DNA of 64,000 bases from Polyangium mundeleinium (lineage in GTDB: Bacteria > Myxococcota_A > Polyangia > Polyangiales > Polyangiaceae), in assembly GCF_028369105.1 (NCBI RefSeq), contig NZ_JAQNDO010000001.1:12122501-12186500 (forward strand), in the 5' to 3' direction. Made by a program: the position numbers and the translations under genes. Each line of letters opens with the position of its first letter. Position 1 is the first letter of the stretch. This document shows, piece after piece, positions 4,449 through 50,944 of this stretch. The notes beneath the pieces are model-generated. The model ran no database searches, was not told where the DNA came from, and worked only from the letters and a program-made list of their open reading frames with translations.

Positions 4449-4458
4449 ATACAGGGGC

Positions 4459-4618
4459 GTGGCGCCGGCGGCGATCGAGCGTCGACAGATCGACGAGGCG
4501 CTCGGTCAATGCGGAGAGAACCAGATCCGCGCCGCCGAGATGCTCGGGTATTTCGCGATGGACGCTGGTGGGAAGGCTTTTGGAGTACGGAAGGCTGCGG
4601 CTGCGCAGGAAGGGGTAA
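4459..4618 (+). pseudogene. Relic FIS-type helix-turn-helix (NtrC-like regulator C-terminus)
   Basis: Frame one reads IDEALGQCGENQIRAAEMLG; after a one-base shift near 4550 frame two continues ISRWTLVGRLLEYGRLR and stops at 4618. Together these make a good C-terminal FIS helix-turn-helix as found on sigma54-dependent activators (A-L-x-x-C-G-x-N-Q-x-x-A-A-x-x-L-G-I-S-R-x-T-L). The AAA+ and receiver parts are absent; the sequence upstream is the methyltransferase in another frame. This is best read as the last remnant of a deleted gene carrying an extra base. Confidence 0.6.
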
Positions 4619-4643
4619 AGGGCGCGCAGGGGGCACACGGCCG

Positions 4644-5635
4644 TCAATGACCGTTCGTCGCGGCAATCCAGGCGGCGAGGTCCTGCGGGGAGAGGTCGAG
4701 AACAGCGTCGCCGACCCGGTCAGGGCCGTCTGCGCGGATTCGCGCGAGCAACGTTGCTCGGGCTCGGTCAACGCGCGGCCGAGTCGGCGCTCGAAGAGGT
4801 GAATGAGCGGCCGGAGGCCCTCCTGGAGGCCTTCCTGGAGGCCCTTCTCGATCCCTTGCTCGATCCCCTTCTCGATTCCTTGCTCGATCCCCTTCTCGAT
4901 TCCTTGCTCGATCCCCTTCGAGTACCCTTCCTCCAGCCCTTCCTTGTAGATCCAGTTCTGCATCACCAGCTCCCTCGGCAACAGCGATCGTACCACGTCT
5001 CGTAATCCCCGCTCGCGTTGATCCGCTTCCGCCAGGACGGCCATGGCCGTGCCGAGCTCGTCGAACGTCGCGGGCGGGACACGCGCGCGAAGCTCGCCGA
5101 GCACGCGCTCGACGCTGCGTTCGTCCGCGTCCACGGCGAGTGGCGCGAAGGCGAGCCAGAAGCTCCCCCAGGCAGCAAGCTCGGCGATCGTCCGCTGGTA
5201 GACCGGCTCGATGCGGAAGTGGACCCCCGAAAACGGCGCGCCGCGCGGAGAAACCCGATAGGTGCCGTACAGGGGCCACGGCTCTTCGCGACCGCCCAAG
5301 AGGACGACGATGCTCTCGATGGGCGGTACGAGTTCCGGGCCGCTCTTGTTCTCTTCCGCGACCGCAAAGCCGAGGAGCGCCTGATACTCATAGGTCCGAT
5401 ATGGCATGTTCGAGGGCATCGCTGTCTGCCATTCCACGTGGAGGAGCCTCCTCTCACCGTCGATGCGCACATCGAGCGTTCGATCGAGCTCGCGGTGGCG
5501 CGAGGTGACCTGGGTCTCGAGCACGGTCGCGGTGAGCGGTCCCTCGCAGCCGAGCAGGCCGCGCGCGAGTTCGTCCGGGAACCGCTGCGAGATGTGGCGC
5601 AGGATCAGATCGACGCTGTCGTCTTCGGGGGACAC
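4644..5635 (-). pseudogene. Rpn-family PD-(D/E)XK nuclease, frameshifted near its C-terminus
   Basis: The N-terminal ~290 residues match the Rpn/YhgA-like family of recombination-promoting nucleases: a DVRIDGERRLLHVEWQT core (D...ExQ variant of PD-(D/E)XK) followed by a long domain. A G-I-E-Q-G-I-E-K repeat linker then leads to ALTEPEQ. One base is missing at about 4752, and the natural ending (TLLARIRADGPDRVGDAVL...AAWIAATNGH) lies in the next frame, stopping at 4644. Without correction the frame runs through unrelated sequence to 3866. The break sits inside a perfect 16-bp palindrome (4745-4760). It may be intact in the organism if the indel is a sequencing error. Confidence 0.7.
4845..4925 (-). 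repeat. 24-bp tandem repeat encoding GIEQGIEK
   Basis: About three copies of a 24-bp unit encode an 8-residue charged helical repeat linking the nuclease domain to its C-terminal tail. Such G-x-x-x-G repeats are common in Rpn/DUF4351-type proteins and vary in copy number. Confidence 0.7.
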
Positions 5636-37282: not shown

Positions 37283-38410
37283 TCAGCGCGCGGCCTTCAC
37301 GATTTTCCCGAGGAGCGCTGCCCTCACCTTGGGGAACGGGTTCGCAGGGAAGCGGCGATCGTAACGAGCAAGCGCCTCTCGGGCATCCGCGATATCGCCC
37401 CGCTCCAAGGCGCCTCGGGCCCGATCCAGCAAGGCGCGCGCCTCCAACAGGGGATCCGCCGGTGGATGCCCCGCAAGGAGTTTCCGCGGTGTCGCCGCTG
37501 GCGGCATGATTGGCTGCTGCATAGGCATCGCGTCCACGGTCGGGACGTGCGGGACGCGCTCGTCGAACTGCGCCCGTGCAGCCACCGGCACGGGGGCCGA
37601 CGCGGTCTGCATGAGGAGATAGACGATCGCCCCACCCACAAGACCGCCCGTGAAGTTTCCGCCGACAAACGAGCCGACATCCGACCCGCCAGACGTGGGC
37701 GCATCGGCATTCGGCGCGGCATCCGGAACCGCTGGCCGAGCCCCCGACGCGGGGCTCTGCTCGACGATGGCGCGGAGCTGCGCGAGCTGATCCTCCGGCA
37801 CCTGCTCCGTGCGAGCGCGAAGGAACGCGAACAGCCCGTCCACCGCGAAGGGCAGGACGACGAGCCCGCGGTCGCGCATCTTCCGCTTGATCCGCCGGGA
37901 AAAATCCTGCCGCGCCCGTTCCAGCCGATCCTTGACCGTTCGTTTCGAGCCCCCGATGAGCTGCGCCGTCTCCTCGTAGCTCAGCTCCGCGAGCTCCACG
38001 GCCGTGAGCACCTCGCGGAGATCCTCGTCCATTTCCCCGATGGTCTCGTGAACGAGCCGCTCGTACTGCGCTGTCGCCATGGCTTCCTCGGGGTTTCTCG
38101 TGCCCACCGGCAGGATGGTCACGTCTGCATCGTCGGTGAAATCGCTCCGATAGTCCTCGCGCTGGCGATGATCGCGCGCCATCCGCCTCGTGATCACGTA
38201 CAGCCAGACGCCCAGCGATCCCTTGGCCGGATCGTACCGCGACAACCCAGCGACGGCCGCGACAAGCACCTCCTGCGCGAGGTCTGGGATGTGCTCGTCG
38301 GCGACGGGCCCCCACGGGGGCGCGAGACGGGCCAACCAGATCGGGACGCGGCGCGAGAGCTGCACGAGCTGGTCACGAGTCGACGTGTTCGAGGTTCGTT
38401 CCTGGGTCAC
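37283..38410 (-). CDS. ECF-type sigma factor with a membrane-anchored C-terminal extension
   Basis: 375 residues from the GTG at 38410. Sigma region 2 spans ~25-90 (HIPDLAQEVLVAAVAGLSRYDPAKG; VWLYVITRRMARDHRQR) and region 4 ~115-175 (LTAVELAELSYEETAQLIGGSKRTVKDRLERARQD). A Pro/Ala linker and a Gly-rich hydrophobic segment (~247-268, VGGNFTGGLVGGAIVYLLM) follow, then a helical tail with a TPR-like GALERGDIADAREALARY. ECF sigmas normally end after region 4, so the tail may hold an inhibitory or sensory part. It lies downstream of an envelope gene pair on the same strand. Confidence 0.8.
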   Translation of the reverse strand: MTQERTSNTSTRDQLVQLSRRVPIWLARLAPPWGPVADEHIPDLAQEVLVAAVAGLSRYDPAKGSLGVWLYVITRRMARDHRQREDYRSDFTDDADVTILPVGTRNPEEAMATAQYERLVHETIGEMDEDLREVLTAVELAELSYEETAQLIGGSKRTVKDRLERARQDFSRRIKRKMRDRGLVVLPFAVDGLFAFLRARTEQVPEDQLAQLRAIVEQSPASGARPAVPDAAPNADAPTSGGSDVGSFVGGNFTGGLVGGAIVYLLMQTASAPVPVAARAQFDERVPHVPTVDAMPMQQPIMPPAATPRKLLAGHPPADPLLEARALLDRARGALERGDIADAREALARYDRRFPANPFPKVRAALLGKIVKAAR

Positions 38411-38454
38411 ATCTTCGGGGATTGGGTCGAGCCCCCGAGAGGGACACCAAAATC

Positions 38455-39545
38455 CTAAGGGCGACAGCAAATCGTCGATGGGCGGAGGCGCTCTACCTCG
38501 CCGGTGGACGCGCCGCCGATCGGCTGACACGTGCCCGGGTGGTACTTGACGTCCGACACGGCCTTGCTCCCGAGCGCCGGTCCGGGTGGCGTCAAGGGCA
38601 AACACACCTCGTCCAGCGACGAGATCGGGTATCCCGAAATCACTGGCGTCAGACACATGCTGTCCGAGTAGATCGAGGCGGTCGCTGTACACAGACTGCC
38701 GGCGACCTCGGGCGAGCACGTGCAATCCGTGCAGGTCCGCTTGTCGTCGTAGCCGGTATAAATGACGAAGCGCTCGGTATAACTTTCGCCTCGCAGGGGA
38801 CGTCCCCCTCCTGATACACGCAGACGCGGAACGCGGGCGGGGGCGCGGGCGCGGGGGCACACTTCGCCGCGGAGCCGCACCCCACCTCCCCACCTTCCGG
38901 GAAGCCCTCGCAGCCAAGGACCGTGAGCCCCCATCTCGGCACGTCGGAGGTTCCCGTGAGGATGGGATCCTCCTCCACCTCGCAGCCTTCGTCCACGGCT
39001 TCCATCGGGCCAATCGTGAGGGATTCGACGCACGCCTTCCCGTCGCATTGTTTACCGGCAGCGACTGCGCTCGCGTTCGAGCAGGCTCCATCCCACGCGG
39101 TCGGAGGATCAAACGACGTCACGACGGCTCCCGGCGTGGAGCAGGCGGCGTTTGACGCGGTCATCGTCGCGGGGAGCTTGCATGTCCCGGTGGATGGCTT
39201 GCAGCCACAGGCGCAGTTGAGCGGCCCCGCGATCAGCTCAGCGTACTTGGTAAAATGGTGTACGGGCGCCTCCGGTGGGCATTCGAGGGGGTGCCCCGGC
39301 GACAGTGCGACGAGAATGGGGTCGCTCCATCCGAGGGGCCGCAAAGGGACGCACTGCCCCCCTCGTGCCTCGCATGATTTGGCCTCGACGCCGCCGTCGT
39401 CGCCGTCTTCCTCGCCGCCATCGTTCGCTCCGGCGTCCTCGGCGTCCGGTCCGGCGTCGACGTAGGGATAAACTTCGAAGGTCCCCGTGTAACATGCGGT
39501 CAACAGGGTAGACAATACAACAATGAACGTTCTATGCCTCATCAT
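38455..39545 (-). pseudogene. Cys-rich lipoprotein, frameshifted
   Basis: From ATG 39545 there is a signal peptide with lipobox LLTAC, an Asp/Glu-rich linker, and Cys-rich repeats to CVYQEGDVPCE. Near 38790 one base is missing, and the family's usual ending (RTCTDCTCSPEVAGSLC ... PGTCQPIGGASTG ... ICC) continues in the next frame to the stop at 38455. It is paralogous to the secreted protein at 21259-22449, which shows the intact layout. The start overlaps the stop of the barrel gene (ATGATGA). Real decay or a sequencing indel; the rest is well preserved. Confidence 0.65.
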
Positions 39546-40639
39546 TCCGGTTGCCTCATCATTGACGGCTGCCACGTCACACCTATTCCGAAAGAAGGCA
39601 AAAATCCCGGCGTGCTCCAAAATCGTTGCGCGTCAGATTCGCCCATAAATACAGCCGCTTCGCTTCTCGTTCCCGCGAACAGGAGCTCCAGATATCCGCG
39701 CACCCACACGTTCGTAGCGACTGGATGATCGTACGAGCCTCGTAGGCCCGCGCCGAAGAATGGTTGGGCTATGCCATCGGATTTTCCAAACGCGTCGCCC
39801 AAATTGAATTGATACCACCCTGCCGAAATGGGGGTGCAGATGCGTCCCCGCGCCCCAAGCACGAGGCACGGAACAACTGCACCGGTTGCAAGCGACGTGC
39901 GGACCGGGACACCCTCCACCTCCCCCAAAAGATCGATCACACCCCGCAGCTCGGCGCCCAGCGTTACCCATTCCCAGCGTATCGCGACCTGGAAGGCTCC
40001 GCCGAGCGCAACATTCGGAGTGTCGAACGGTCCGAACACGGCGGCCGCAGACAGCTCGGTCCGGAACGGCGGACCGTCGGGAGCCGAGGGCGTTGAGGGC
40101 GTTGAGGGCGTTGAGGGTGGGAACAGGGGCTCCTCATAAGCCCGCCGACGGAGCTGCGGTAGGGGCACCGCCATGCTCGGCGGCGGGGGCTTGGGTGCCT
40201 CCGGAGGCGCCGGTGGGGCAAGGAGTGTCCACGCCTCCGGCGTCTCCCCCTTCACGGTGACGAAACGCGCCGCCACCATGAGCGCGACGTCCTCGACGAG
40301 ATCAATACACTTCCCTCGGGGCGTCGCCGTCTCCTCCCATTGCAGCGTCCCCTGCTCGTCTCGCGCGGTGAGCACGGCCTCCAGTTGGCCCCCGGCACGC
40401 CGCACCGTGACGGAGAGGGACGCACGCGCCGATTCCGGGAAGACGTCGTAGCGGAACTTCGCGCTCGTCAGCTCGGCAAGGGCCGCCTCCGTGGGACATC
40501 GAACGTCCGCAGGAACGACATACGCCAGACGAAACGCGATCCGCTGGTCCACCGACGTATCGTCAGCCATCGCAGGCGTCGCAGGCGTCGCAAGCGCGAC
40601 GACGGAGGCGGTGAGTAACTTTACACCGGGGTAGCGCAT
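39542..40639 (-). CDS. Predicted outer-membrane beta-barrel protein
   Basis: 365 residues. Signal peptide (VVALATPATPAMA). An N-terminal ~120-residue periplasmic-type domain (VDQRIAFRLAYVVPADVRCPTEAAL) resembles those in myxobacterial envelope proteins. A Pro-rich linker with STPSTPSTPS follows, then alternating amphipathic strands (TELSAAAVFGPFDTPNVALGGAFQVAIRWEW; SFGIGVTWQP) typical of a small barrel. First gene of a coupled set with the Cys-rich lipoprotein and probably the sigma factor. Confidence 0.65.
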   Translation of the reverse strand: MRYPGVKLLTASVVALATPATPAMADDTSVDQRIAFRLAYVVPADVRCPTEAALAELTSAKFRYDVFPESARASLSVTVRRAGGQLEAVLTARDEQGTLQWEETATPRGKCIDLVEDVALMVAARFVTVKGETPEAWTLLAPPAPPEAPKPPPPSMAVPLPQLRRRAYEEPLFPPSTPSTPSTPSAPDGPPFRTELSAAAVFGPFDTPNVALGGAFQVAIRWEWVTLGAELRGVIDLLGEVEGVPVRTSLATGAVVPCLVLGARGRICTPISAGWYQFNLGDAFGKSDGIAQPFFGAGLRGSYDHPVATNVWVRGYLELLFAGTRSEAAVFMGESDAQRFWSTPGFLPSFGIGVTWQPSMMRQPE

Positions 40640-40943
40640 CGAGTCCGTGGACGAACCTTGATGCTATCAGGAAACGTCTGGAAACGACAAGGGGGGAGGC
40701 GCATGGTTCTGTCACGACGAACCTCCGGGCCCACTCGGACCAACTCCATATCGTCGTCGGACCGACGAGCACGGCGTGGGACAAACCTGACTGCCGTGCG
40801 ACGCACGGTCGAGGACAAGCCGTTCCATACACCGTCGGTGTCACGACGGGGGCGGGCGAGGTGGTACGTTTGATCAGATTCGCCGCGTTCTTCGATATCG
40901 ACGCGCCGTAGGCCGCCCGGCCCGAGCGCTCCCCTGTGCGGCG
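40640..40943. promoter_or_regulatory. Upstream region with three short palindromes
   Basis: About 300 bp with no credible gene. Three odd palindromes lie in a row: TCGTCGG-A-CCGACGA (40754-40768), CCGTGCG-A-CGCACGG (40794-40808) and ACACCG-T-CGGTGT (40829-40841). The decamer TGTCACGACG occurs twice nearby. The position upstream of the barrel operon makes operator or activator binding plausible. Confidence 0.35.
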
Positions 40944-42461
40944 TCAGGGTACGAGGATATTCGACAAGGCATCTGCCTGCGCGAATTTTGCGGCGGAGCG
41001 GAACGGATGGGTCGTGATGTCGACATCCGACACATGGGCTGCGACACGGACATAGAAGGCGCTCACGTCATCGAGGATGCCCGGAGGGAGATCGATCCTC
41101 GTGTCCTTCGTGCGCAGGTTCGCGATAAGCGTCCCGAACGAGCCCCCGTCGGGCTTCAAGATATCGATCGTGTAGTGCGTCGGCGTCCCGACGGCCGGCG
41201 CCGTCCAGCTCAAGCGTGGTGTCCGGGTGACGCCCGTCTGATCGCTGAACGCGTTTTTCCCGTTGACCTCGAGGTCCTGGACCGGGCTCACCAGCGGCTC
41301 GATGGGCCGCCCGCTGACGCTCGCGACATCACGGCTGAACATGATGACACCGAAGTCGTTCCACGGCGTCGCCACGCCGGGCGCGGTATAGGCCACCAGG
41401 CCATAGTGGTAGACGAACACGGAGCTCCCCCAGGCCGCGGGATACGGGTTTCCATACGGGATCGCTCCCAGATTCACGTCGGCGGGTCCGGGAGCGATGC
41501 CGAGGGTGAGAAGCGTCGCGGAAGCGCCGACGGGGGCGTACGTGTTGCCGGGCCGCGTGCGGATCTCGACGAAGGTACCTTGGTCGACGGCCTTTGGGTT
41601 CACCGCTGTGACGTGGCTCGTGAATTTCGTTGTATGGACATCGAGCGAGACGCTCACGTTCGACGGGACGCTGGTGAACGCGCCGCTCCTCGAGACGGTA
41701 CTCCCGTCGGTCTGCGTGATATCGTCGAAGCTCGCGAATCGCGTGACGATGGCGTAAGGCACGCCGGAAGCGCCCGTCTGCTGTGAGAGCTGGGAGACCG
41801 TGAGGACATCCCCCTTGCCCGCGTCGATGAGGCTGCCCCAGGCGAAGCCCGACCAGTTCACGGTGAACCTCTCGAGCTTGGTGTCGCCGACCGCAGGCCA
41901 GTTCTCGGCGCCCGAGCCCGAGCCGAACATCCTCTGCCCTGCACCGCTGTTGGGCACGAACAATTGGATGTCATCCTTGGCCTGCCAAGGAGCGAGGTTC
42001 GTGATGTCCAGGACGAGGTTGGTCGGAACGACCGTCGCGCGCGGCGCACCCTTGCGTCCAGCGATTGCGCCGCCGAGGTCGACGACCCTGGCCGAGGTAT
42101 AGATATATTCGAACTCGCCCACGCGGAGGACATAGGGGCCCTCGGGGACGCCGGGAATGAGGACCGAGCCATCCGCCTTGCCCGTGCCTTTGAATGTCTG
42201 CCACTGCCCGCCGCCCATGGGAACGAGGGCCTCGATGGGGGTCGTGCTGAGGTCTCGGGGGGCCTCGACGGTGGCGGTTTCTCCGATCCAGACGTCGACC
42301 GCGCTGACGGACACGGCGCCGCGCTCGCCGCCGCTCTCCGAGGGGCTCGGGGGCCTCGACGATGGCGGGCCGCCTGTGCCTTCGCCATTGCCGCCGCAAG
42401 CAGGGAAGAAAGCTAGAGCAAAAAGGGTCGCGGCGTGTGCTACGTGGGTACGTTGGAGCAT
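40944..42461 (-). CDS. Large surface lipoprotein
   Basis: About 505 residues from the ATG at 42461, with GGAGGAGAAGG just before it. Lipobox FFPAC follows a signal peptide, then a Ser/Pro/Gly linker. The mature protein is beta-rich. The C-terminal third (TPRLSWTAPAVGTPTHYTIDILKPDG ... FYVRVAAHV) looks like a fibronectin type III domain. It lies ~200 bp downstream of the peptide-modification operon on the same strand, but a functional link is not shown. Confidence 0.65.
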   Translation of the reverse strand: MLQRTHVAHAATLFALAFFPACGGNGEGTGGPPSSRPPSPSESGGERGAVSVSAVDVWIGETATVEAPRDLSTTPIEALVPMGGGQWQTFKGTGKADGSVLIPGVPEGPYVLRVGEFEYIYTSARVVDLGGAIAGRKGAPRATVVPTNLVLDITNLAPWQAKDDIQLFVPNSGAGQRMFGSGSGAENWPAVGDTKLERFTVNWSGFAWGSLIDAGKGDVLTVSQLSQQTGASGVPYAIVTRFASFDDITQTDGSTVSRSGAFTSVPSNVSVSLDVHTTKFTSHVTAVNPKAVDQGTFVEIRTRPGNTYAPVGASATLLTLGIAPGPADVNLGAIPYGNPYPAAWGSSVFVYHYGLVAYTAPGVATPWNDFGVIMFSRDVASVSGRPIEPLVSPVQDLEVNGKNAFSDQTGVTRTPRLSWTAPAVGTPTHYTIDILKPDGGSFGTLIANLRTKDTRIDLPPGILDDVSAFYVRVAAHVSDVDITTHPFRSAAKFAQADALSNILVP

Positions 42462-42664
42462 CCTTCTCCTCCTGGGTGAAGCCATCCGCAGGGGCCATGC
42501 CACGGGGAGCCCGAATCTCTGGAGGGCGGCAAAAACGACGAACGTCCTCGCCTCTCCCCACGGCATACGAGCCATGGCTACGGCGAGTGCGCGACAGGAA
42601 AGCCCAGCCTGTCGGCTCGAGCAGGCCAGGGCGCCCGTTGAACCGGCGAAACCCCCTGCTCGAG

Positions 42665-43741
42665 TTATATGGATGGTTCGACGAGGATCCGGGCCTGGTA
42701 GAACGTGAGGAGGAGATCGTCGGGGATACTTACGCCCTTTTCCTGCGCCAGCCGAACTCGGTTCTCCGCGACGGTCTGGTCCCCGCGGAAGTCGCGGAGG
42801 ACCTCTTGATGCTCCAGGGACAGGAAGAAGGTTTCATAGCGGCTGTAGCTCTTCACATAGATGCCGCCGTTCGCGGGGATGCCGACCATATGAGAATTCA
42901 TCACGAGGCGCTCGGGCAAGGTCGGCGCCGTGGCCTGCCGGTAAGCTCGGACCGCTTCGTCGAGCAGAGCCCGGCCATCGCCATTGTTTACAACGGCCTC
43001 GAATTCTTGACTGTTGGTGGCGGCGACGTGCTCGTGGCAGCGGAGATACAGCTCCTCCTCGCGTCCTTCCCACTCGCTCCAGCACGCGGAATAGTGGGCA
43101 GGAGGCCGGTCTTCGAGGTCCTCCAGGGTGAGCTCGCCGAGCGTAGCTGCGGGCTCGCGGAGCTGAGGCGCGACGCGCTGTAGCGCGTGCTCGGCGAGCC
43201 TGCTCTCCACGTGAGATAGGTAGCTGCGCATGGCCGTCCAGAAATTTGCGCCATCTGCGCCTGCCGAATACCGGCAGAAGAACGTGGAGCAAGTCGACTC
43301 ACGGTGCCGCCATACGGTGCAAAGGCCGCTCTCGACCTCGTAATAGGGGCAGCGCAGCACGAGCGATCGGCCAAAGCTCGTGCGGCGGGTGGCCTTCAGC
43401 AGGAGCTGCGTCTTGGCGGGAGGCGCGAGCCATTGTGGCGTAACGCCGGAGCGCGCGGCGATCTTGGCGCGGATGCGGCTGCGCCCCTCGGCCATGTCAG
43501 GGCTGTTGTCCGCCAGGATCGCGCCAACGAGATAATTGGGGAGCCTGGGGTGGAAACTGCAGCACTTGACATCGGGACGAAAACGGACGGCGCCTGGCAA
43601 GGCACGGCCGCCCTCAGCGGCCGGGGCCATGGCACAGCGGTCGCACGTGGCCTTGTCTTCCCGGGGCGCAGGCTCGTCGAAGAACGAGGGCAGGAAGCTC
43701 CAGTAAAGTGGAGGGAAGACGCTACGCAGTATTTCGTTCAT
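42665..43741 (-). CDS. YkgJ/FliB-like eight-cysteine protein of the MNIO peptide cluster
   Basis: 358 residues; the ATG overlaps the MNIO stop. Cysteines occur at 33, 36 (CDRC), 60, 61 (CC), 131, 141, 151 and 156 in a YkgJ-type arrangement (KCCSFHPRLPNYLVGAIL; LRCPYY ... LCTVWRHRESTCSTFFC). The YkgJ family binds Zn or Fe-S through such clusters, and FliB, the flagellin lysine-N-methylase, shares this domain. Given the Cys-Lys repeat of the neighbouring peptide, a role in modifying or metallating it is a reasonable but untested inference. Confidence 0.7.
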   Translation of the reverse strand: MNEILRSVFPPLYWSFLPSFFDEPAPREDKATCDRCAMAPAAEGGRALPGAVRFRPDVKCCSFHPRLPNYLVGAILADNSPDMAEGRSRIRAKIAARSGVTPQWLAPPAKTQLLLKATRRTSFGRSLVLRCPYYEVESGLCTVWRHRESTCSTFFCRYSAGADGANFWTAMRSYLSHVESRLAEHALQRVAPQLREPAATLGELTLEDLEDRPPAHYSACWSEWEGREEELYLRCHEHVAATNSQEFEAVVNNGDGRALLDEAVRAYRQATAPTLPERLVMNSHMVGIPANGGIYVKSYSRYETFFLSLEHQEVLRDFRGDQTVAENRVRLAQEKGVSIPDDLLLTFYQARILVEPSI

Positions 43742-44643
43742 GCGACTCCCTCCATGGCGCCGCCCGGCAGGTTTGGCCTCGGAGACTCGAATCGCTGGGC
43801 CGCCTCTCTCTGCTTGCGCGCCGTCTCCAGGATATCCCGCGCCTTGGTTATCTCCACCAGCAGCTCCTCTATCGGCGGGTAGTTGTCGTCCCGCTCGATG
43901 ATCACGCCCTTGACGTCGGTCCGCAGCGCGAGCGCCCGAAGCACGTCCCAGCTCCCCTCTTCGACCGCATGGGAGTGCGAGTCGAAGAGCAGCCCGCCCG
44001 CCCGAACGCCGCCGGCCATGTGCACCTGTATGACCCTGTCGAGCGGTATCTGCTCGAGGAAGTGAATGGGGTCATAGCCATGGTTGGTCGCGTTGGTGTA
44101 CAGGTTGGTCGCATCGAGGAGGAGCCCGCAACCCGTGCGTTCCACGATTTCGTTCAACAGATCCGTATGGGAGAGCTCGCCTTGAGGGATATCGAAGAAG
44201 TAGCTTATATTTTCGACAATCAGCAGCTTGCCCGTATGGTCCTGCACGGTCGAGATGTTGCGTACGATGCTCTCGAGGCTGCTTCTGGTGAGCACAATCG
44301 GCGAGAGATGTCCGAGATCGATGCCTGGTGCGGAAGTGATCGCCAGATGGTCGCTGTAGTAGGGAGCGCCGGTCACTTCGAGAACTTTCTTGATACACCG
44401 CAGATATTCCGTCGTAGGTGGCGCCGTCGAACCGACCGAGAGCTGGAGCCCGTGGGGCACGCAGGGCAGGAGGGCACAGAGCGCCTCGAGCTCGTCGAGC
44501 TGGCGCGGCGTCATGAAATGCTCCGTCGTGATCTCGATGAAATCGATGGAGTCCCTATGAGCCAGGATGGATGATTTCATCCGGCGCCGAAATCCGAGGC
44601 CGGAGCCGAGGTGCGGGATCGCATGAGCGGAGGACTGTAACAT
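43738..44643 (-). CDS. DUF692 / multinuclear non-haem iron oxidative enzyme (MNIO)
   Basis: 301 residues, normal for the family, folded as a TIM barrel. The expected metal ligands are visible: HG at 64-65 (PHGLQLSVG), SDH 97-99, EN 144-145 (VENISYF), LLLDATN with D177 and N180, NHG, VHMAGG with H208, LFDSHSH with D221 and H223/H225, and E250. Known relatives (MbnB, TglH, BufB, the aminopyruvatide enzymes) use mixed-valent iron and O2 to rewrite Cys or Asp residues of precursor peptides. It sits 4 bp after its partner gene and overlaps the next, in one operon with the precursor. Confidence 0.92.
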   Translation of the reverse strand: MLQSSAHAIPHLGSGLGFRRRMKSSILAHRDSIDFIEITTEHFMTPRQLDELEALCALLPCVPHGLQLSVGSTAPPTTEYLRCIKKVLEVTGAPYYSDHLAITSAPGIDLGHLSPIVLTRSSLESIVRNISTVQDHTGKLLIVENISYFFDIPQGELSHTDLLNEIVERTGCGLLLDATNLYTNATNHGYDPIHFLEQIPLDRVIQVHMAGGVRAGGLLFDSHSHAVEEGSWDVLRALALRTDVKGVIIERDDNYPPIEELLVEITKARDILETARKQREAAQRFESPRPNLPGGAMEGVA

Positions 44644-44647
44644 TGCT

Positions 44648-45514
44648 TTAGCTCCTGAGAATTCCTATCGACGCCATGTGTCCCAGCGCCTGAATCAGAT
44701 CCTCCATGAGGCCTTCAATAGCAAGCTGATGTTCGAGCTCAGCAACGATACCCCGCACGGTCCGCACGCCATCACACAGGTCGAGCAGGCTCCCAAGAGC
44801 CTGGTTTACCTCGAATACGCGCGGAGGCGAAAGCCCTGCCAGATGTTGAAATACGATCCAAACTGGGGCCTTTTCGATGCGGCAGGGGAGCTCATCGTGA
44901 CGCAGCGAGGATACGATGTCCGTGATGTTGTATTCGAATCCACCAAAACAAACGCCGCTCTTCACGACGGGGCAGGCGTCTATTGAAATGCCACCGGCGG
45001 GCGCCCCGGCGCCCTCTACGTCGTCGTCCGTTCGCGTCGGCGGGAATCCGGCTGCGCAAAAGAGGCGCTCATAACGGGCGAGCTCCGCGGCGTATGTCGG
45101 GACATCCTCATCCCCCCGAAGCGTCTCTTCCAGAAACGTGCCAAAGCTCCCGAGGTACTCCTGCGTGGAAGCATGAGGTCTCGCCGGGAAAAGCTGGTAG
45201 AATCGATCGGTATAGCGATCCATTGCGGCGGGGACGAGGCGGCCTGTGAGCGGGTAGTTTTCCTGGATCCGCTCGAGTCGCTTTCCCTTCAAAGAGGCCG
45301 CGAACGTTTCGAGCATGTCGCGGTCGATCTCCGTAACAGCCCGACCCTCTTCAGGCGAAAGCGCGTACATGTGAAGCGTCTTTTCTGGAGCTATATGGGA
45401 TAACATCCGAAAACAATCGTCCGTGTACAGGCGGACGAGGTAACGCTGCATTTCGCTGAGGCTCACGAGCCACCTCTTCCATTTCGGAGGAGGGGCGAAC
45501 GGCTGCGTTCTCAT
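44648..45514 (-). CDS. MNIO partner protein with C-terminal PqqD-like (RRE) domain
   Basis: 288 residues from the ATG at 45514 (a TTG at 45526 also fits). The N-terminal ~200 residues are helical, of the kind seen in MbnC/TglI/DUF2063-type partners (YPLTGRLVPAAMDRYTDRFYQLFP; GSFGTFLEETL). Residues ~229-288 read as a PqqD-like RiPP recognition element: LSPPRVFEVNQALGSLLDLC, DGVRTVRGIVAEL, and a final helix ending GILRS. It should bind the leader peptide and present the core to the MNIO. Confidence 0.75.
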   Translation of the reverse strand: MRTQPFAPPPKWKRWLVSLSEMQRYLVRLYTDDCFRMLSHIAPEKTLHMYALSPEEGRAVTEIDRDMLETFAASLKGKRLERIQENYPLTGRLVPAAMDRYTDRFYQLFPARPHASTQEYLGSFGTFLEETLRGDEDVPTYAAELARYERLFCAAGFPPTRTDDDVEGAGAPAGGISIDACPVVKSGVCFGGFEYNITDIVSSLRHDELPCRIEKAPVWIVFQHLAGLSPPRVFEVNQALGSLLDLCDGVRTVRGIVAELEHQLAIEGLMEDLIQALGHMASIGILRS

Positions 45515-45586
45515 GGCATCGCGCAATCCATTGTGCGACAGGCCCAGGGCGCAGCCGCTCCCCCACGACTCTATGCTAGAGATCGT

Positions 45587-45718
45587 TCAATCGCTGAACG
45601 ACTTGCACTTGCACTTGCACTTACAGTCTTCCCAGTCGAGGGGCTTCTGCGTTTCTGCCGCAGCGTTCACCTTGGCCGAGACCTCTTTGAGCTGAAAAAT
45701 ATTCTTGTGCGTGGACAT
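45587..45718 (-). CDS. RiPP precursor peptide with CKCKCKCK core
   Basis: 43 residues, preceded by an AAAGGAGG ribosome site, the strongest in the cluster. The leader (MSTHKNIFQLKEVSAKVNAA) is charged and helical and contains an FQLKEV block typical of RRE-bound leaders. The core region DWEDCKCKCKCKSFSD has Cys at 32, 34, 36 and 38 alternating with Lys, from a repeated TGCAAG hexamer. In an extended strand all thiols lie on one face and all lysines on the other. It is the first gene of the MNIO operon. No transporter or protease gene is attached. Confidence 0.85.
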   Translation of the reverse strand: MSTHKNIFQLKEVSAKVNAAAETQKPLDWEDCKCKCKCKSFSD

Positions 45719-46094
45719 GTGGTGCCTCCTTTGAACCGCGTGATTCATCTCGCGAATCCACGGGTGCATTCGATTCATCGAGCCATCGATTGCATCGTCA
45801 AGGGCGAAGGCAGCCTCATCCTCGAAATTTTCGGAGCACGGGTGCGGGACTTGTTGCCAAGTTTTGCGATTGACGTGCGCATGGCCTCGACAGCCTCTGC
45901 CGATAGGGATTCTCTGTATGGCTTCATGGCCGCCCTTCTTGAACGACGGCCTCGGCGGCACTCCCTCAGGAACGGCAGCGAGCGACGGCTCTCACGGCGG
46001 GCGCGCGAGTTTCGCGCAGCCGGGTGGGCCGCTTCACGTCGATCACCGACTTCGACGGGAAACACGATTTCGATTGGGCGGTCTTTGACACCCT
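45719..46094. other. Precursor upstream region with a possible decayed plus-strand gene end
   Basis: About 375 bp without an intact gene. The promoter of the peptide operon should lie near 45719-45800, where the imperfect symmetry GATTC-N7-GAATC is seen. On the plus strand one frame reads protein-like text (AALPQERQRATALTAG ... VGRFTSITDFDGKHDFDWAV) from ~45955 to 46100 with no start and no full length, which may be the tail of a lost gene. Confidence 0.3.
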
Positions 46095-46619
46095 TCACCG
46101 GACTTGCTGCCCGAACGCCTCGTCCGCAAGGTCCGCCTCGGCGTCGGCCTTCGTCTGCTGGACCCGCCCGGGGATGTGGTTCGGGGGCGCGTAGAGCGTA
46201 TACAGCTTGAGCGGCGTCTTGCCCGTATTGATGAAGTTGTGGCGGACGCCGGGCGTCACGAGCACCACGTCACCAGGTCGGAACGGCGACGCGACGCCAT
46301 TGAGGACGACTTTTCCTTCTCCCTCGACCAGGACCAGGACCTGCTCGACCCGCTTGTGCTGCTCCTGCCCGACTTCACCACCCGGCGGGATGCTCATGGC
46401 CACCACCTGCATCCGCTTCGCCGTGAAGAGCACGCGACGATAGGCTTCATTCTGCCGGGTGAGCGCGTCGATGTTCGCGTGAAACGTCACCCCGGCTCGC
46501 GGCGCGCGTTGCGCCTGGGCCTGCTGCCGAGCATCGGCCTGCGCCGAGGGCGAGACAGACCCAACGACACCGAGCACGCTTGCGAACGCGAGAAGACCCG
46601 CCAATAGAGTACGCGTCAT
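46095..46619 (-). CDS. Secreted cupin-domain protein
   Basis: 174 residues with a signal peptide (VLGVVGSVSPSAQA) and a Gln/Ala-rich linker. The cupin core is clear: PPGGEVGQEQHKRVEQVLVLVEGEGKVVLNG (motif 1, with E and H ligands) and PGDVVLVTPGVRHNFINTG (motif 2, with H). Exported cupins bind a metal and act as enzymes or binding proteins. It lies upstream of the peptide operon on the same strand, ~375 bp away, probably separate. The ~210 bp beyond its start holds nothing I can support. Confidence 0.8.
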   Translation of the reverse strand: MTRTLLAGLLAFASVLGVVGSVSPSAQADARQQAQAQRAPRAGVTFHANIDALTRQNEAYRRVLFTAKRMQVVAMSIPPGGEVGQEQHKRVEQVLVLVEGEGKVVLNGVASPFRPGDVVLVTPGVRHNFINTGKTPLKLYTLYAPPNHIPGRVQQTKADAEADLADEAFGQQVR

Positions 46620-46832
46620 GAGCCCCTCCTCGTGGAACGTATCCTTTGCGGAGGAACGTAATGCAGCCAGACCGGGTCGTCAGCCGTCCCTACGAGATCA
46701 CGCGTGGGGCTGAAGGAGGGTCAGAGGAGCCGCATTGCGCGGAGTCGAGAAAATACGGAGATCGAGACGGGAATGAACTGAACGGCGAGATCGCCGCCAC
46801 GATGTCTCGCGATGGGAACCGCGCTGGCGCAG

Positions 46833-47336
46833 CTACTTACAGGCGCCGCTGATGCAGGACTTCCCGGTGGGACAATGCTTGTCGCAAACGCACTGCGGGT
46901 AGGGCTTGAAGGCAGTGCCGCAGACTCCGTTGGAACAAATCCTGGAGACGCCGCAATCACAATTGCTACTGCAAGGCTCCGTCGGCGCCTCGCAGGAGCC
47001 ATAGTCTCTCTCGGAAAAGAAGACACAGCTCTTGGAACCCGTACACTGGCATGAGGCTACGCAAAAGGGGCTCGGCGGGGGCGGACTGACATTATTGATC
47101 TTCGAGCATACCTTTTGACCGGATTCATTCGCCTTGCAGGCCGTGCCCAGCTCGCATTGACAGTTCGACGAACACGGGCTGCCCGCTGGCAGCAGCAGCT
47201 CGCTGCTCGCCTGGTCGGTGTCCTCCTCGACACTCTCCTGCGGGTCGGGGCTCCTCATGAGACATGCAGCCGGGGCAGCGCAGAAGAGCACGAGCGCGGC
47301 CAACGGTTTCATCAAAGTGGCGAATCGACGAAGCAT
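46833..47336 (-). CDS. Lipoprotein with four Cys-rich repeats
   Basis: About 167 residues from the ATG at 47336 with GGGAGG before it. Lipobox APAAC. Four similar Cys-rich motifs follow: CSSNCQCELGTAC, CVASCQCTGSKSC, CSSNCDCGVSRIC and CVCDKHCPTGKSC (C-x3-C-x-C or related), spaced 25-35 residues apart like small EGF-like or Dickkopf-like knots. Exported and disulfide-rich. Three tandem operator-like palindromes lie 141-191 bp upstream. Confidence 0.65.
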   Translation of the reverse strand: MLRRFATLMKPLAALVLFCAAPAACLMRSPDPQESVEEDTDQASSELLLPAGSPCSSNCQCELGTACKANESGQKVCSKINNVSPPPPSPFCVASCQCTGSKSCVFFSERDYGSCEAPTEPCSSNCDCGVSRICSNGVCGTAFKPYPQCVCDKHCPTGKSCISGACK

Positions 47337-47476
47337 GCTGAACCTCCCAAACAAATCCACGAGGTGACGACGGCGCCATCCCGGGACGTGGAAGCGACGG
47401 CAGGTACCATACCAACCACGGGGACGTCGAATTTGGGGAGGACGTCCATCGGCACACGGCCCCGCCATGGCCTCAA

Positions 47477-47527
47477 ATGCACGGTTCGCGCATTGCGCTA
47501 CTTGTGCAAATTGCGCGACTGGCGCAA
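47477..47527. promoter_or_regulatory. Three tandem 6-5-6 palindromes (NTGCGC-N5-GCGCAN)
   Basis: ATGCAC-N5-GCGCAT (47477-47493), TTGCGC-N5-GTGCAA (47493-47509) and TTGCGC-N5-GCGCAA (47511-47527), with centres 16 and 18 bp apart. The third copy is perfect; each of the others has one mismatch. Repetition of the same half-site in an upstream region points to a cooperative dimeric regulator. Confidence 0.6.
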
Positions 47528-47555
47528 CACGAACGTGGCAAGCAGCGATATCTCA

Positions 47556-47577
47556 CCCGTGGCCTCGGGGCCACGGG
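47556..47577 (-). terminator. Hairpin after the haem-lipoprotein operon
   Basis: A 9-bp perfect stem (CCCGTGGCC / GGCCACGGG) with a 4-nt loop, directly downstream of the last operon gene on the minus strand. No T-tract follows, so termination strength is uncertain. Confidence 0.5.
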
Positions 47578-47580
47578 CCG

Positions 47581-48177
47581 CTAAGGATGCCCGAGCTCGA
47601 CCTCACACTGCGTCGTATCGGTATTCCCCGTCAGCCAATTGGTCATGCACACGTCCCCGGGGTCGCCCTTGTTCCACAAGAGCCCGCCCTTGTGTTTCTC
47701 GCGCAATCGCGCCTTTCGCACGATCGACAGCACCTCGGGGTCCGCGGTCTTCGCGAATACCTTCGCTGCGAGCTCCGGTTCGAGCGCCAGAATCGAGCGG
47801 TAGTTGTCCTCCAGCTCGGCGATCGTCGTGGGCTCTTTCCCGCCGGAATAGTATTCGTCGTAGTTCTCGACGTTCGGCGAGGTTCGCTCCTCGTACCGGC
47901 GCAGCCCGTACTGGCCATACAGCCGCAGCGGCCGCGCGGCGTGGCCGTGGCAATCGAGCGTGCCGCAACGGCGCTCGAGGACCGCAGAGACCGCGCGGAA
48001 CGAGGTCGGGTCGAAGGGCGGGGCCACGATTTCATTCACGGCAGGGCCCAGGTCGCCGCAACCAGCGGCGACGAGAATGACGCCGCAACCAGCGGCGACG
48101 AGAATGACGCCGCAGCCCGCGACGGCGAAGCGCGCCACGCTGGAGCAAAAGAGGCTCGCCTTGCGTCGTGTGTTCAT
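47581..48177 (-). CDS. Haem-motif lipoprotein with duplicated lipobox
   Basis: 198 residues from the ATG at 48177, which overlaps the upstream stop. The N-terminus repeats VILVAAGCG, giving candidate lipid-attachment cysteines at VAGC, AAGC and AAGC. The mature part has CGTLDCHG, a CX3CH site like those of Planctomycete-type cytochromes, and LEDNYRSILALEPE with a later CMTNWLTG that could supply a Met ligand. Probably an outer-membrane c-type cytochrome. Last gene of a five-gene operon. Confidence 0.65.
   Translation of the reverse strand: MNTRRKASLFCSSVARFAVAGCGVILVAAGCGVILVAAGCGDLGPAVNEIVAPPFDPTSFRAVSAVLERRCGTLDCHGHAARPLRLYGQYGLRRYEERTSPNVENYDEYYSGGKEPTTIAELEDNYRSILALEPELAAKVFAKTADPEVLSIVRKARLREKHKGGLLWNKGDPGDVCMTNWLTGNTDTTQCEVELGHP
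48055..48108 (-). repeat. 27-bp tandem duplication in the lipobox region
   Basis: Two identical 27-bp units (48055-48081 and 48082-48108) encode the repeated nine residues of the signal peptide end. No mismatch separates them, so the duplication is recent or under conversion. Confidence 0.85.
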
Positions 48178-48758
48178 TTCGCAGCTCCCGGGCAGGCGGG
48201 GTCTTGCGGCGGGAACGGAGGATTCGTCTCGGCGGCGGCGCACGTCACCCACCCGGGCGAACCCTGGTTCGGATTGCCCACGTGGCACCCCGCGCAGGAT
48301 CCGTCGCGGCTGATGCGCGTCGACATGACCACACGTTTCGTGCTCTCCAGGGCCCCAGGCACGGGGTACTCGATCTCGGCGCGCAGCGGAAAGGCCGGGT
48401 CCCACTTGTCCGTTTCGATGAAGAAGTTGCCCGCGCAGTTCGTGCCGACCTCGTATTGCTCGCCGAACGAATCGGTCAGCTTGACCTTCACGCCCTTGAC
48501 GGGAAGCGGCTTCTGCTCGGGCGTCTGCGTCGGATACGCATAGATCGTCCCGCCGACGCTCATGACCGGGTTCTCCCGTAGGTACTCGCCGTGGCAGAGC
48601 ACGCAGGGCTGTCCAGGGCGATGAAACTCGCCCACGGGGACATTCGGATCCTCTTCGCCGAGCGCGGCGATACGCTCGTCGACGGCGCGGTTGCCGCAGC
48701 CGACGAGCATGCCAAGCACAACGAGCGACGAGGCGAGGGCGGTCTTGGCCGTCATCAT
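48174..48758 (-). CDS. Two-haem cytochrome lipoprotein
   Basis: 194 residues with lipobox MLVGC. Haem c sites CVLCH (near 52) and CAGCH (near 158) bracket a beta domain (GGTIYAYPTQT ... VKLTDSFGEQYEV ... CAGNFFIE) that resembles a carboxypeptidase-regulatory or prealbumin-like fold. Start and stop overlap both neighbours (ATGA), so it is made in step with the DUF3570 barrel and the next haem lipoprotein. Probably an extracellular electron carrier docked on the outer membrane. Confidence 0.75.
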   Translation of the reverse strand: MMTAKTALASSLVVLGMLVGCGNRAVDERIAALGEEDPNVPVGEFHRPGQPCVLCHGEYLRENPVMSVGGTIYAYPTQTPEQKPLPVKGVKVKLTDSFGEQYEVGTNCAGNFFIETDKWDPAFPLRAEIEYPVPGALESTKRVVMSTRISRDGSCAGCHVGNPNQGSPGWVTCAAAETNPPFPPQDPACPGAAK

Positions 48759-50944
48759 TCGACGTCGACCTCCAGCGTGAGCGCGCCGAAGTAGCCGAAG
48801 CGCTGCAGGATGAAGAGCGTGTTCAAGAAGCGCGTGTAAATCACGTCGCCGCTCACGATGAGGCCCCAGTTCTTGGCCTCGCCAAACGCGATGCGCGTGC
48901 CGAGTCCGCCGGTCACGCCGATCAGCGGGCCGAGCTCGCGGTCGCCGGTGCGCAGCGCAGGCACTTGCAGGCCCGTGGGCGTCCGTTCGGACACGTACGC
49001 GAGTTGCCAGAAGGCCGCGCCCGTCTGCGCGTGGAACCGGAAATGCGGCCAGATGCGCACGTTCTGGCTGATGTCGTAGAGGTACCGGAGGTCCGTCGTC
49101 GTGGCCTTGAGGCCCCAGCTATCCGCGTAGAGCCGCTCCTCGGCGCGCAACGTGCTCGCGGAGAAGCGGCGCGCGTAGCGGGCGGCGAACGCGAAGCGCT
49201 GGCGGCTCAGCGGGAGCTGTTCGAGGATGCGCTCGGGGTTCCGGTAAAAATTTACCGTCGCGAGCGACTGTCCCGGCAAGACGCGCGGGGCGATGTCCGG
49301 CGCGAACGTCGGGATGTAGCGGTAGGGCTTGGAGCTGTCGCCCGCCTCGATCACCGCGCTGAAGTTCGTGGTCAGGATGGAGTTCTTGTCGAGCACGAAC
49401 GACGAGGAGAGGTCGAGCGCGTGGCGCTGGATGCGCCGCGAGAAGACCTCGTAGCTCGTGCCCGATCGGCCCGCGATGTCGTACGAGAAGTCGTAGCTCA
49501 GGCTCGGCGTGACCGTCTTCTGGCGCAGGTCGATCGCGACCGTGGTGCCGACGCTCGTCGCCAGGTAGTCGGGCTCGATCGACATCGCGGTGTGAAGGTT
49601 CACGTCGACGTCGCCGAACTTCTTGTGGCCGCCGAGCGCGGGCACGTACCGCTGCTCGGTCCAGCGCGGCGAGGCCGTGGCCACGATGTCGGTCGACGCG
49701 GCCGTGACGACGTCGACGAGGAACGAGCCACCAAACCCCCAGCCGCTCGTGGGGTTCTCGACGTTGAAGAAGACCGTCGGGCTGACGACGTCGACCTTGT
49801 CGGAGTCGTGGTACGCCGAGAACTCCAGGCCGAACTTGAGGTTCAACGGCAGCTTGCGGTTCTTCGCGATGCACTCGTCGAACTGGTCCTGCGTCTGCGC
49901 GTTCTGCATGCACTGGACGAGCGCGCGGTCGATCGCCTTGCCCTTCGGCACGAGCTTGACCTCGACCGTCGCCGTCTCGCCCTCGCCGACGTTCACGCTC
50001 TGCTCGAAGGACTGCTCGGCGCCGTTCACCTTGCCCGTCGCGATGATCGTGCGCTCGCCGGGGTTTACGGGGATCTCGGCGCCGAGCTGATCCTCTGCGA
50101 GCTCGACGCCGTTCACGCGAACCTTGAGGTCGGTCGCGTTCGCCGGCTTCTGGACGATGATCTTCGGGATCTTGGCGCGGAGCTCATCGGCGCGGCTGCG
50201 CGCCTGCGCGGCCATCTGACGGATGTTCTTGCGCGACGCGGCCTCGGCGGTCGCCTCGTAGTCGGAGACGGCCTCGACCCAGAGGCCGGCGCGCGCCTCG
50301 CACGCGGCGACGAGGAAAAGCGTCGAGGTGCGATCCTCGGCCTCGTACGACGCGCGCCCGTACGCAATGCAGTCGAGCCACTCGCGCTCCTTCTCGGCCT
50401 TGGTCGCGAGTTCATAGTAGAACGAGCCCTCGCCCGTGCGCCAGCCACGCGCCGGGGGCTGCCCCTCGTACGTGGCCTTGAGCTTCTTCGAGCCGCCCGA
50501 CGCGGCCTTCGCCTCTTTCGTCTCCGGGTTGCCGCCGCTCGGCGAACCGGCGCTGCGCGCCTCGCTCCACGCCTTCTCGATCTCGCGCGAGGTGAAGTCG
50601 GGGAAGAGCGCGATGGTCGGATCTTCCTTGATCGCCGTGGCGAACGCGGCCTTCGCTTCGCTCGACTTCTTCATGCCGCCGGCGAGCACGGTGCCGAGCG
50701 CGACGTAGAGCTTCGCGCGGACCTTCGAGCTGCACGCGCTCTTCTTGGCGCACGCTTGTTTCGCCAGGTTCAGCGTGTCGAGCGCCTCCTGGTACTTGCC
50801 TTCCTTGTAGCTCGCTTCGAGCACCGTCTGGACGAGGACCTCGACCTCCTCGTCGTTGGGCGCGGCGCTCGCAGGCGCGGGGGCCAGCGTGAGCGCAGCG
50901 GCGACGAGCGGGGCGAGGAGGGCTTGTGCGAGGCGGCGGATCAC
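48755..50944 (-). CDS. DUF3570 outer-membrane barrel with N-terminal TPR region
   Basis: About 729 residues from a GTG at 50944 that starts the signal peptide (LVAAALTLAPAPASA); the frame is open further upstream. Residues ~25-260 are TPR-like helices, then a PEGA-like segment (VRVNGVELAEDQLGAEIPVNPGERTIIATG). The C-terminal ~370 residues are the DUF3570 beta barrel (FGLEFSAYHDSDKVDVVSPTVFFN ... GYFGALTLEVDVE). In other bacteria DUF3570 genes sit with DUF4266 lipoproteins and thioredoxins, as here. It may form a pore for the haem lipoproteins next to it. Confidence 0.8.
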   Translation of the reverse strand: MIRRLAQALLAPLVAAALTLAPAPASAAPNDEEVEVLVQTVLEASYKEGKYQEALDTLNLAKQACAKKSACSSKVRAKLYVALGTVLAGGMKKSSEAKAAFATAIKEDPTIALFPDFTSREIEKAWSEARSAGSPSGGNPETKEAKAASGGSKKLKATYEGQPPARGWRTGEGSFYYELATKAEKEREWLDCIAYGRASYEAEDRTSTLFLVAACEARAGLWVEAVSDYEATAEAASRKNIRQMAAQARSRADELRAKIPKIIVQKPANATDLKVRVNGVELAEDQLGAEIPVNPGERTIIATGKVNGAEQSFEQSVNVGEGETATVEVKLVPKGKAIDRALVQCMQNAQTQDQFDECIAKNRKLPLNLKFGLEFSAYHDSDKVDVVSPTVFFNVENPTSGWGFGGSFLVDVVTAASTDIVATASPRWTEQRYVPALGGHKKFGDVDVNLHTAMSIEPDYLATSVGTTVAIDLRQKTVTPSLSYDFSYDIAGRSGTSYEVFSRRIQRHALDLSSSFVLDKNSILTTNFSAVIEAGDSSKPYRYIPTFAPDIAPRVLPGQSLATVNFYRNPERILEQLPLSRQRFAFAARYARRFSASTLRAEERLYADSWGLKATTTDLRYLYDISQNVRIWPHFRFHAQTGAAFWQLAYVSERTPTGLQVPALRTGDRELGPLIGVTGGLGTRIAFGEAKNWGLIVSGDVIYTRFLNTLFILQRFGYFGALTLEVDVE

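Follow-up and report, generated by a model that had tools for sequence, protein, structure and literature searches.

What is made from a 43-residue peptide whose tail alternates cysteine with lysine four times over, and whose gene heads that of an oxidative peptide-modifying enzyme? The question is raised by four genes in a 64,000-nucleotide stretch of DNA from the soil myxobacterium Polyangium mundeleinium, called the window here (contig positions 12122501-12186500 of the 13.25-Mb genome). They occupy the minus strand from 45718 to 42665 in the order precursor peptide, partner protein, multinuclear non-haem iron-dependent oxidative enzyme (MNIO) and YkgJ-like protein, just as an earlier note made from the sequence alone had described. 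That note read them as a cassette for a ribosomally synthesised and post-translationally modified peptide (RiPP), with a MNIO and a partner bearing a RiPP recognition element (RRE), and our analysis supports this reading. We hold it very likely that the locus is a MNIO RiPP cassette with the 43-residue peptide as its substrate. As the best overall explanation, to which we give a probability of roughly 0.6, the MNIO and its RRE partner would oxidise the four cysteines, likeliest to thiooxazole-type groups, to give a copper-binding peptide. The papers PMC13097082, PMC12452194, PMC12257519 and PMC8598068 are cited here from excerpts.

The precursor and its Cys-Lys core

Sequence criteria support the 43-residue peptide proposed in the earlier note as a real gene. 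Its open reading frame (ORF; 45718-45587) follows a ribosome-binding motif and is conserved in Polyangium fumosum (DSM 14668, G085), where the cassette lies at locus L010.

45587-45718, minus strand: precursor, 43 aa, without a signal-peptide-like stretch (ORF; equal-length orthologue at L010:1932-2063; hydropathy)
45602-45625, minus strand: core repeat CKCKCKCK, Cys32-Lys39 (sequence; CKCECKCK in P. fumosum)
45725-45730, minus strand: Shine-Dalgarno-like AGGAGG, 6 nt before the precursor ATG (sequence; AGGAAGG in P. fumosum)

The peptide ends in DCKCKCKCKSFSD, with D43 as its last residue. Its P. fumosum orthologue, MATHKSIFQIKEVSTKVNAAAGTQKTLDWESCKCECKCKSFNS, shares the start and the 43-residue length. 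Whether homologous loci conserve the cysteines, a point raised by the earlier note, is answered in this one orthologue by four of four kept; more distant relatives keep Cys clusters but not the Lys. Counting the stop, 34 of the 44 codons are the same or differ silently between the two Polyangium genes, with dN 0.12, dS 0.37 and dN/dS about 0.33 (NG86). The eight core residues carry one replacement (K35E) and three silent changes, two of these in Cys codons, versus nine replacements in the other 35 residues, numbers too small for testing. A 124-residue alternative reading from a GTG at 45961 has no counterpart in P. fumosum, where the frame is open from L010:1851, 27 codons before the ATG.

A sceptical reading would take the core as a functionless (TGCAAG)n microsatellite, since hexamer repeats coding for (CK)n or (CE)n do occur in other Myxococcota, some of them as pure arrays. 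The P. fumosum gene argues against this. Its copy number is the same, silent changes (TGC to TGT, AAG to AAA) interrupt the repeat, and every Cys is retained; one would not expect a pure DNA repeat to preserve number and reading like this. The precursor also has a good ribosome-binding site, and the repeat places elsewhere lie without an adjacent MNIO or partner. We find the microsatellite scarcely credible.

These other places came from a search for further (CK)n frames beside MNIO genes, as the earlier note had advised. DNA coding for C[K/E]C[K/E]C[K/E]C was found at 15 places in 11 of 356 Myxococcota genomes, the window's genome included, and only the window's place adjoins a MNIO. The 14 others have no MNIO, partner or fourth-gene match within at most about 1.5 kb on each side, and the wider region around one of them (L215, in G351) likewise holds no MNIO or partner. 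At L165, L166, L167 and L192, TGCAAG or TGCGA[A/G] hexanucleotide arrays, some pure and others interrupted, code for (CK)n or (CE)n with no MNIO near. In a literature search covering mostly open-access papers, no RiPP paper appeared by title with CKCKCKC or CKCKCK, and CKCECKC appeared nowhere. The claim that no characterised RiPP has a CKCKCKCK core is supported, both by title in the literature and beside any other MNIO in the 356 genomes.

The precursor also appears to lack a signal peptide. Judged by hydropathy alone rather than by a dedicated predictor, the best 12 residues within its first 35 score 0.32, versus 2.02-2.34 in six bufferin-type controls.

The MNIO, its partner and the residue after the catalytic aspartate

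43738-44643, minus strand: MNIO (MbnB_TglH_ChrH family), 301 aa (PF05114 1.7e-77; own lineage in the tree)
43885-43890, minus strand: Asp252-Asp253 of the MNIO, putative catalytic base and putative 'Cys-Lys' specificity position (alignment to 3BWW and the rule of PMC13097082)
44648-45526, minus strand: MNIO partner (PME-type 2-like), 292 aa from a TTG, first ATG at 45514 (weak ApyI, PqqD and Os17/NHLP matches, all below cut-off)
45287-45454, minus strand: N-terminal Os17/LigA-like helical region, partner residues 25-80 (NF038399 7.2e-6; LigA/SonA profile)
44657-44833, minus strand: PqqD/RRE-like region, partner residues 232-290 (family matches)

The third gene encodes the DUF692 enzyme named in the earlier note, with 260.7 bits to PF05114 against a gathering cut-off of 25, which places it in the superfamily. 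Aligned to the 3BWW, TglH and MbnB chains, it has H64, H99, E144, D177, N180, H208, D221, H223 and E250 at the family-aligned positions, residues that we take to be metal ligands. Among these solved chains it scores 127 bits with 3BWW, 79 with TglH and at most 51 with MbnB; 3BWW has been placed with PME1-linked MNIOs (PMC13097082). A maximum-likelihood tree of 34 MNIOs, rooted at the midpoint, puts the enzyme in a group of 12 rows with those of P. fumosum, G099, G100, G101, G103, G312, G032, G499, G443, G222 and Streptomyces. A separate group of 22 rows holds the sampled bufferin/captophorin-type and TIGR04222-linked enzymes (bipartition 96/89). The window's genome contains three more MNIO-family matches (C1:5805460-5806167, 11054983-11055789 and 5261091-5261663), the first of which (L088) exceeds the BufB cut-off with 312.8 of 310 bits.

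The partner has the PqqD-like C-terminus that had been proposed for it, at sub-cut-off strength (PF05402 20.2 bits, cut-off 23.4; TIGR03859 7.5e-5). It also matches the ApyI model NF050149 at 3.9e-5 over most of its length, again under the cut-off. Its sequence agrees with a PME-type 2 partner, all family matches lying below curated cut-offs. With a five-row profile, the N-terminus matches LigA-domain/SonA chains at E about 0.01-0.02, and a precursor-type domain, as in the RiPP precursor SonA, may have been reused here.

The ApyI match, together with a precursor ending in D43, could point to an ApyH-like reaction at the C-terminal Asp, as in the aminopyruvatide system (ApyA/H/I), whose reaction acts on Asp. 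We judge this very improbable. The terminal Asp is Ser in P. fumosum, none of the four genes encodes a cytochrome P450, and the cut-offs for both ApyH and ApyI are missed. Aminopyruvatide was rejected as the product class on the unconserved Asp.

A published marker bears on which residues the MNIO would modify. Captophorin precursors have been grouped into Lys-Cys, Cys-Lys and DUF2282 types, and the residue following the catalytic Asp is Phe in Lys-Cys MNIOs and Asp in Cys-Lys MNIOs (PMC13097082). The window's enzyme reads ERD-D (D252, D253) opposite the ERD-F of 3BWW. Among Myxococcota, this position is Asp in all four loci with an accepted Cys-Lys precursor (window, P. fumosum, G030 and G023), Asn in three of three with a Lys-Cys precursor, and Ala or Gln in the five others (L205 included). 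Plasmid-borne MNIOs, from 11 records fetched and two left out, have Asp in five of six Cys-Lys loci and in none of four others, one of the four with a doubtful precursor. The loci in these counts are not independent.

The Myxococcota test covered 45 MNIO frames, 7 of them without a readable motif and most others without an identified precursor. Judged spurious by eye, the crude-filter candidates at L089, L096, L103, L113, L114 and L115 were set aside, together with two of the three at L097. No convincing precursor was seen at L206, L208, L210-L214, L085, L093 or most others of the 45, and L207 had no MNIO match.

As the window's MNIO lies outside the bufferin/captophorin group, its Asp is not explained by membership of the bufferin-2 clade. 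The sequence evidence supports an enzyme that works like a Cys-Lys MNIO and does not support calling it a bufferin. Membership of the bufferins or captophorins was rejected because the BufB and HvfB cut-offs, the DUF2063 partner and the signal-peptide-like stretch all failed. The Polyangiaceae loci L099 (G030) and L112 (G023) encode longer Cys-Lys precursors with NECKG-type motifs and have EWD-D MNIOs in a bufferin-like branch.

Proposed product and competing chemistries

We propose that the RRE-like C-terminus of the partner would bind the leader, with FQLKEV as the putative recognition segment, and present the C-terminal CKCKCKCK to the MNIO. The enzyme would oxidise the four cysteines, each with a Lys after it, and Asp253 would recognise that Lys by analogy with BufB2. 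It is likely that the cysteines are the modified residues, as the earlier note had suggested. The favoured chemistry would be a four-electron oxidation of each Cys to a 5-thiooxazole, with 4 H lost per site and a mass change of at most about -16.1 Da in total. Fontiphorin contains seven 5-thiooxazoles, with 4 H lost per Cys (PMC13097082). For a thiooxazole-type product we see slightly less than even odds. Alternating heterocycle-thiol and Lys groups would form a ligand for a soft metal, probably Cu(I), and a copper-related role is put forward tentatively. The genes, the conservation in one orthologue, the conserved cysteines, the block boundaries and the specificity residue are read from the sequence; we infer every catalytic step and the metal.

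Several known systems resemble the cassette in part. In bufferin 2 (BufA2B2C2), a MNIO acts on several Cys-before-Lys sites, Asp follows ERD and the precursor comes first, a likeness in which substrate use by the window's MNIO is presumed. Unlike the window, bufferin 2 has Sec signal peptides and DUF2063 (PME-type 1) partners, and its MNIO belongs to another branch; the window's cassette has an extra YkgJ-like gene and its partner ahead of the MNIO. The EGKCG-repeat captophorins (fontiphorin, oxazolin and gonophorin) share a repeated Cys/Lys motif and a MNIO with an RRE partner. However, their Cys stands after Lys and before Gly, and they have Phe at the specificity site, a Sec signal peptide and a PME-type 1 partner. 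Precursors paired with PME-type 2 partners (adjamnio-1, -2, -I and TIGR04222; PMC12452194) are alike in having no signal peptide, a Cys motif and a partner without the DUF2063 signature, and differ in that the excerpted sections on them describe no (CK)n motif. Adjamnio-7 likewise lacks a signal peptide (PMC12452194). The earlier note had called the operon undescribed. This precursor and the four-gene arrangement are new as far as searched. The architecture of a signal-peptide-less Cys precursor with a MNIO and a PME-type 2 partner had already been described (PMC12452194), and Cys-Lys MNIO substrates were known from bufferin 2 (PMC13097082).

Several observations weigh against the proposed pathway. 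Conservation rests on two sequences because a single orthologue is known, and there one Lys is replaced by Glu. The MNIO falls under all five matched NCBIfam cut-offs (BufB 208.8 of 310 bits, HvfB 200.3 of 360, ApyH 124.8 of 400, MbnB 48.6 of 325 and ChrH 32.4 of 600), and, unlike in captophorins, the partner lacks a DUF2063 match (E up to 1) and the precursor a signal-peptide-like stretch. Two AlphaFold models, each built on a two-row alignment, reached a mean pLDDT (predicted local distance difference test) of 34.6 and 34.1 and were both unusable. The specificity rule has its own irregularities: a Thiothrix Cys-Lys locus has Gly at the position, three Asp MNIOs (including that of G443, in the same tree group) have no identified precursor, and Myxococcota Lys-Cys enzymes carry Asn, departing from the published Phe. 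The shared block has only four called genes, with no transporter, protease or metal regulator among them. The FonBC enzyme did not process a Cys with a charged residue after it (PMC13097082), so Cys-Lys sites would need a dedicated enzyme. Finally, the outcome is described as impossible to predict where a MNIO lacks high homology to those already studied (PMC12257519), and we give the thiooxazole step lower weight because of this warning.

The missed cut-offs and a tree position outside the bufferin/captophorin-type group leave room for a MNIO RiPP with other Cys chemistry, such as oxazolone/thioamide formation (methanobactin), carbon excision (pearlins) or macrocyclisation (chryseobasin). We consider this unlikely, if still a serious contender. 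MbnB and ChrH are the poorest of the five NCBIfam matches, and the order of the structural matches, headed by 3BWW over TglH and MbnB, tells the same way. Pearlin chemistry needs a C-terminal Cys, which the precursor does not have. The Asp marker, too, is that reported for captophorin-type Cys-Lys enzymes. Methanobactin itself was rejected on the MbnB score and because none of the four proteins matches an MbnC family model at E up to 1.

Relatives, the shared block and the YkgJ-like protein

42646-46046, no strand: homologous block common to P. fumosum (blastn 90.3%, 3406 columns, single segment)
42665-43741, minus strand: YkgJ-like protein, 8 invariant Cys, 358 aa (46-row alignment)
43274-43645, minus strand: Cys-cluster region (C33, C36, C60, C61, C131, C141, C151, C156; invariant in 46 of 46 rows)
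42668-42949, minus strand: tentative C-terminal RRE/PqqD-like region, residues 265-358 (hhalign of excised regions)

Two genomes are known to have all four genes together, within a wider but sparse Polyangiia set. Among 108 family genomes, five have a partner match, a strong one only in the case of the window's genome and of P. fumosum; a MNIO scan limited to close relatives returned one locus, that of P. fumosum (91%). At 1e-6 or better, a five-row partner profile matched 14 of 317 class genomes, and in six the match fell below 1e-100 (G000, G085, G099, G100, G103 and G312); only G099 is a new strong match, as the other five are the profile's own rows. The window's MNIO has matches at 1e-40 or better in 141 of 377 Myxococcota genomes; beyond the genus, the closest is 41% identical, and the relatives in G100, G103 (both genus g47) and G312 share 40-41%.

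Five relatives (G099, G100, G101, G103 and G312) have a related partner beside the MNIO and a short precursor. The precursors upstream of the MNIOs in G100 and G103 are MNSDTSGFDLEMITPDDPIELEVREVALCCRCCYGRVSDE and MNTEFAGFDFELIVGDEGTDLEAMEMPHHCCHCCHH, G099 has two tandem copies, MNTDKSGFDFEMITPEDP[T/A]ELEVREVALHCHCCGYVNDE, and those of G312 and G101 end in CLSCYCGSGCLCGSIGSKLGG and WCACAGRCNCFCGNCAACSISPN. C-terminal Cys clustering (CCRCC, HCHCC, CCHCC and others) is common to the set, whereas Cys-Lys alternation is peculiar to Polyangium. The specificity position in these MNIOs is Ala or Gln, not Asp, and their gene order is precursor-MNIO-partner rather than the precursor-partner-MNIO-YkgJ of Polyangium. 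No signal-peptide-like stretch is present in any of the seven precursors, both from Polyangium included: their best 12-residue hydropathy is 0.26-1.03, versus 2.02-2.34 in the six bufferin-type controls. All seven leaders also contain [FLI]x[FLI][KE]x[VILT], found in 0.6-4.7% of shuffles per leader; this post hoc pattern, drawn from the same sequences, is suggestive of common recognition.

The relatives bear on another explanation, in which the (CK)4 peptide goes unmodified and serves as a redox or metallothionein-like peptide, or in which the MNIO has another protein as its target. Short Cys-rich peptides can indeed bind metal as such. We nonetheless regard it as quite improbable, given the tight coupling to a MNIO and an RRE-like partner and the relatives in which precursor, MNIO and partner lie side by side. 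In bufferin clusters, too, the precursor gene heads the MNIO and partner genes (PMC12452194).

Two of the relatives have further genes. At L209:5822-7780 (G101) and L121:6842-8812 (G312), MNIO and partner are followed by glycosyltransferase-like proteins whose C-terminal region is RRE-like; the L121 protein has weak HvfC and PqqD matches, and the L209 frame is matched by the partner profile. An asparagine-synthetase-like gene, identified by eye, is present in G101 as well (L209:7809-9542). These loci may encode glycosylated members of the same RiPP family.

Comparison of window 38001-50000 with L010 by blastn gave the single 3.4-kb block and no match in its flanks. The P. fumosum copy comprises the precursor (1932-2063) and genes at 2125-3003, 3008-3913 and 3910-4986. 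Junctions of 4 bp, claimed for the whole operon in the earlier note, are present as the partner/MNIO gap and the MNIO/YkgJ-like overlap, both repeated in P. fumosum, whereas the precursor-partner gap is 60 nt from the TTG start or 72 nt from the first ATG. Genes flanking the window's operon sit on other P. fumosum contigs than the cassette. With a single shared block and its flanking genes elsewhere, the sequences indicate that the cassette changed place between genomes or that its surroundings were rearranged. No clean empty site could be read in other Polyangium genomes: G086 and G088 have both flanks on different contigs, G089 has one flank, and G087 has a weak partial match to one. Directly upstream of the P. 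fumosum cassette, 48 bp from the block edge, lies a tyrosine-recombinase-like gene (L010:12-1553, named by eye), without a significant relative in the window by tblastn. Upstream of the window's cassette and outside the block, 46833-47468 (minus strand) encodes a Cys-rich, probably secreted protein, judged by eye.

The fourth protein answers to the YkgJ-like 8-Cys protein of the earlier note. It has 10 Cys in all, of which eight, together with one Arg, are invariant in all 46 aligned rows; its PF03692 score of 15.2 bits is under the cut-off of 23. The protein has homologues in 33 of 377 Myxococcota genomes, counting the window's own. Of 44 homologue loci outside Polyangium, none has a MNIO or partner nearby, with many stretches ending at contig ends. 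Small ORFs are shared only between closely related pairs (13 pairs), with no peptide partner found, and by eye the varied contexts have no common neighbour gene (two loci lacked a gene call). On plasmids, the partner had no match at E up to 0.01 and the fourth protein none at E up to 0.001.

Residues 265-358 may form a second RRE-like domain. Excised and compared with the partner's RRE region, they gave an hhalign probability of 80.6%, E 1.3e-5 and a score of 31.1, versus at most 12.4 in 30 column shuffles and 10.6-19.0 in three other domain pairings. The region was picked after a whole-profile comparison with the partner had hinted at it weakly (probability 5.2, E 0.0075), and 0 of 25 family members match Pfam PqqD at E up to 1. 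Because of the 4-bp overlap, the fourth gene is probably translated with the MNIO, and its product may handle the same peptide through this domain, as a second modifying or iron-sulphur/redox protein.

A FliB-type lysine methyltransferase was rejected, as the protein has CX2C and then CC after 23 residues, not CX4CX3CC, and neither it (P0004) nor the 25 members have such a match in NCBIfam, which presumably includes a FliB model. FliB, a [4Fe-4S] lysine methyltransferase, also has eight conserved Cys (PMC8598068) and a PF03692-like cluster, and the comparison is suggestive because the core alternates Cys with Lys. We give a rather low chance to a bolder proposal, in which the YkgJ-like protein would be the founding example of a RiPP enzyme class not recognised before. 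With its eight Cys, a probable iron-sulphur site and an RRE of its own, it would modify the lysines between the MNIO-oxidised cysteines (e.g. by FliB-like methylation) or supply electrons or iron to the MNIO. If so, modified Cys and modified Lys would strictly alternate in the peptide product, and the family members away from MNIOs, in 32 other genomes of 377, would be unexplored peptide- or protein-modifying enzymes.

Plesiocystis pacifica is a myxobacterium. A PME-type 2 partner from it has been modelled (PMC12452194). The main text of that paper, as excerpted, makes no mention of YkgJ, CxxCxxCC, PqqD, or words in myxococc- or polyangi-. Searches, with subscription papers mostly outside their scope, gave no paper for YkgJ with RiPP, or for Polyangium with RiPP, biosynthetic gene cluster or precursor peptide.

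With four near-identical, adjacent Cys-Lys sites in a compact, self-contained substrate, the cassette suits asking whether a MNIO is processive and whether one enzyme Asp sets Cys-Lys specificity outside the bufferins. It connects RiPP biosynthesis with a family of 8-Cys proteins that is so far uncharacterised, and it brings out a group of very short MNIO precursors with Cys tails in Polyangiia, not met in the literature consulted.

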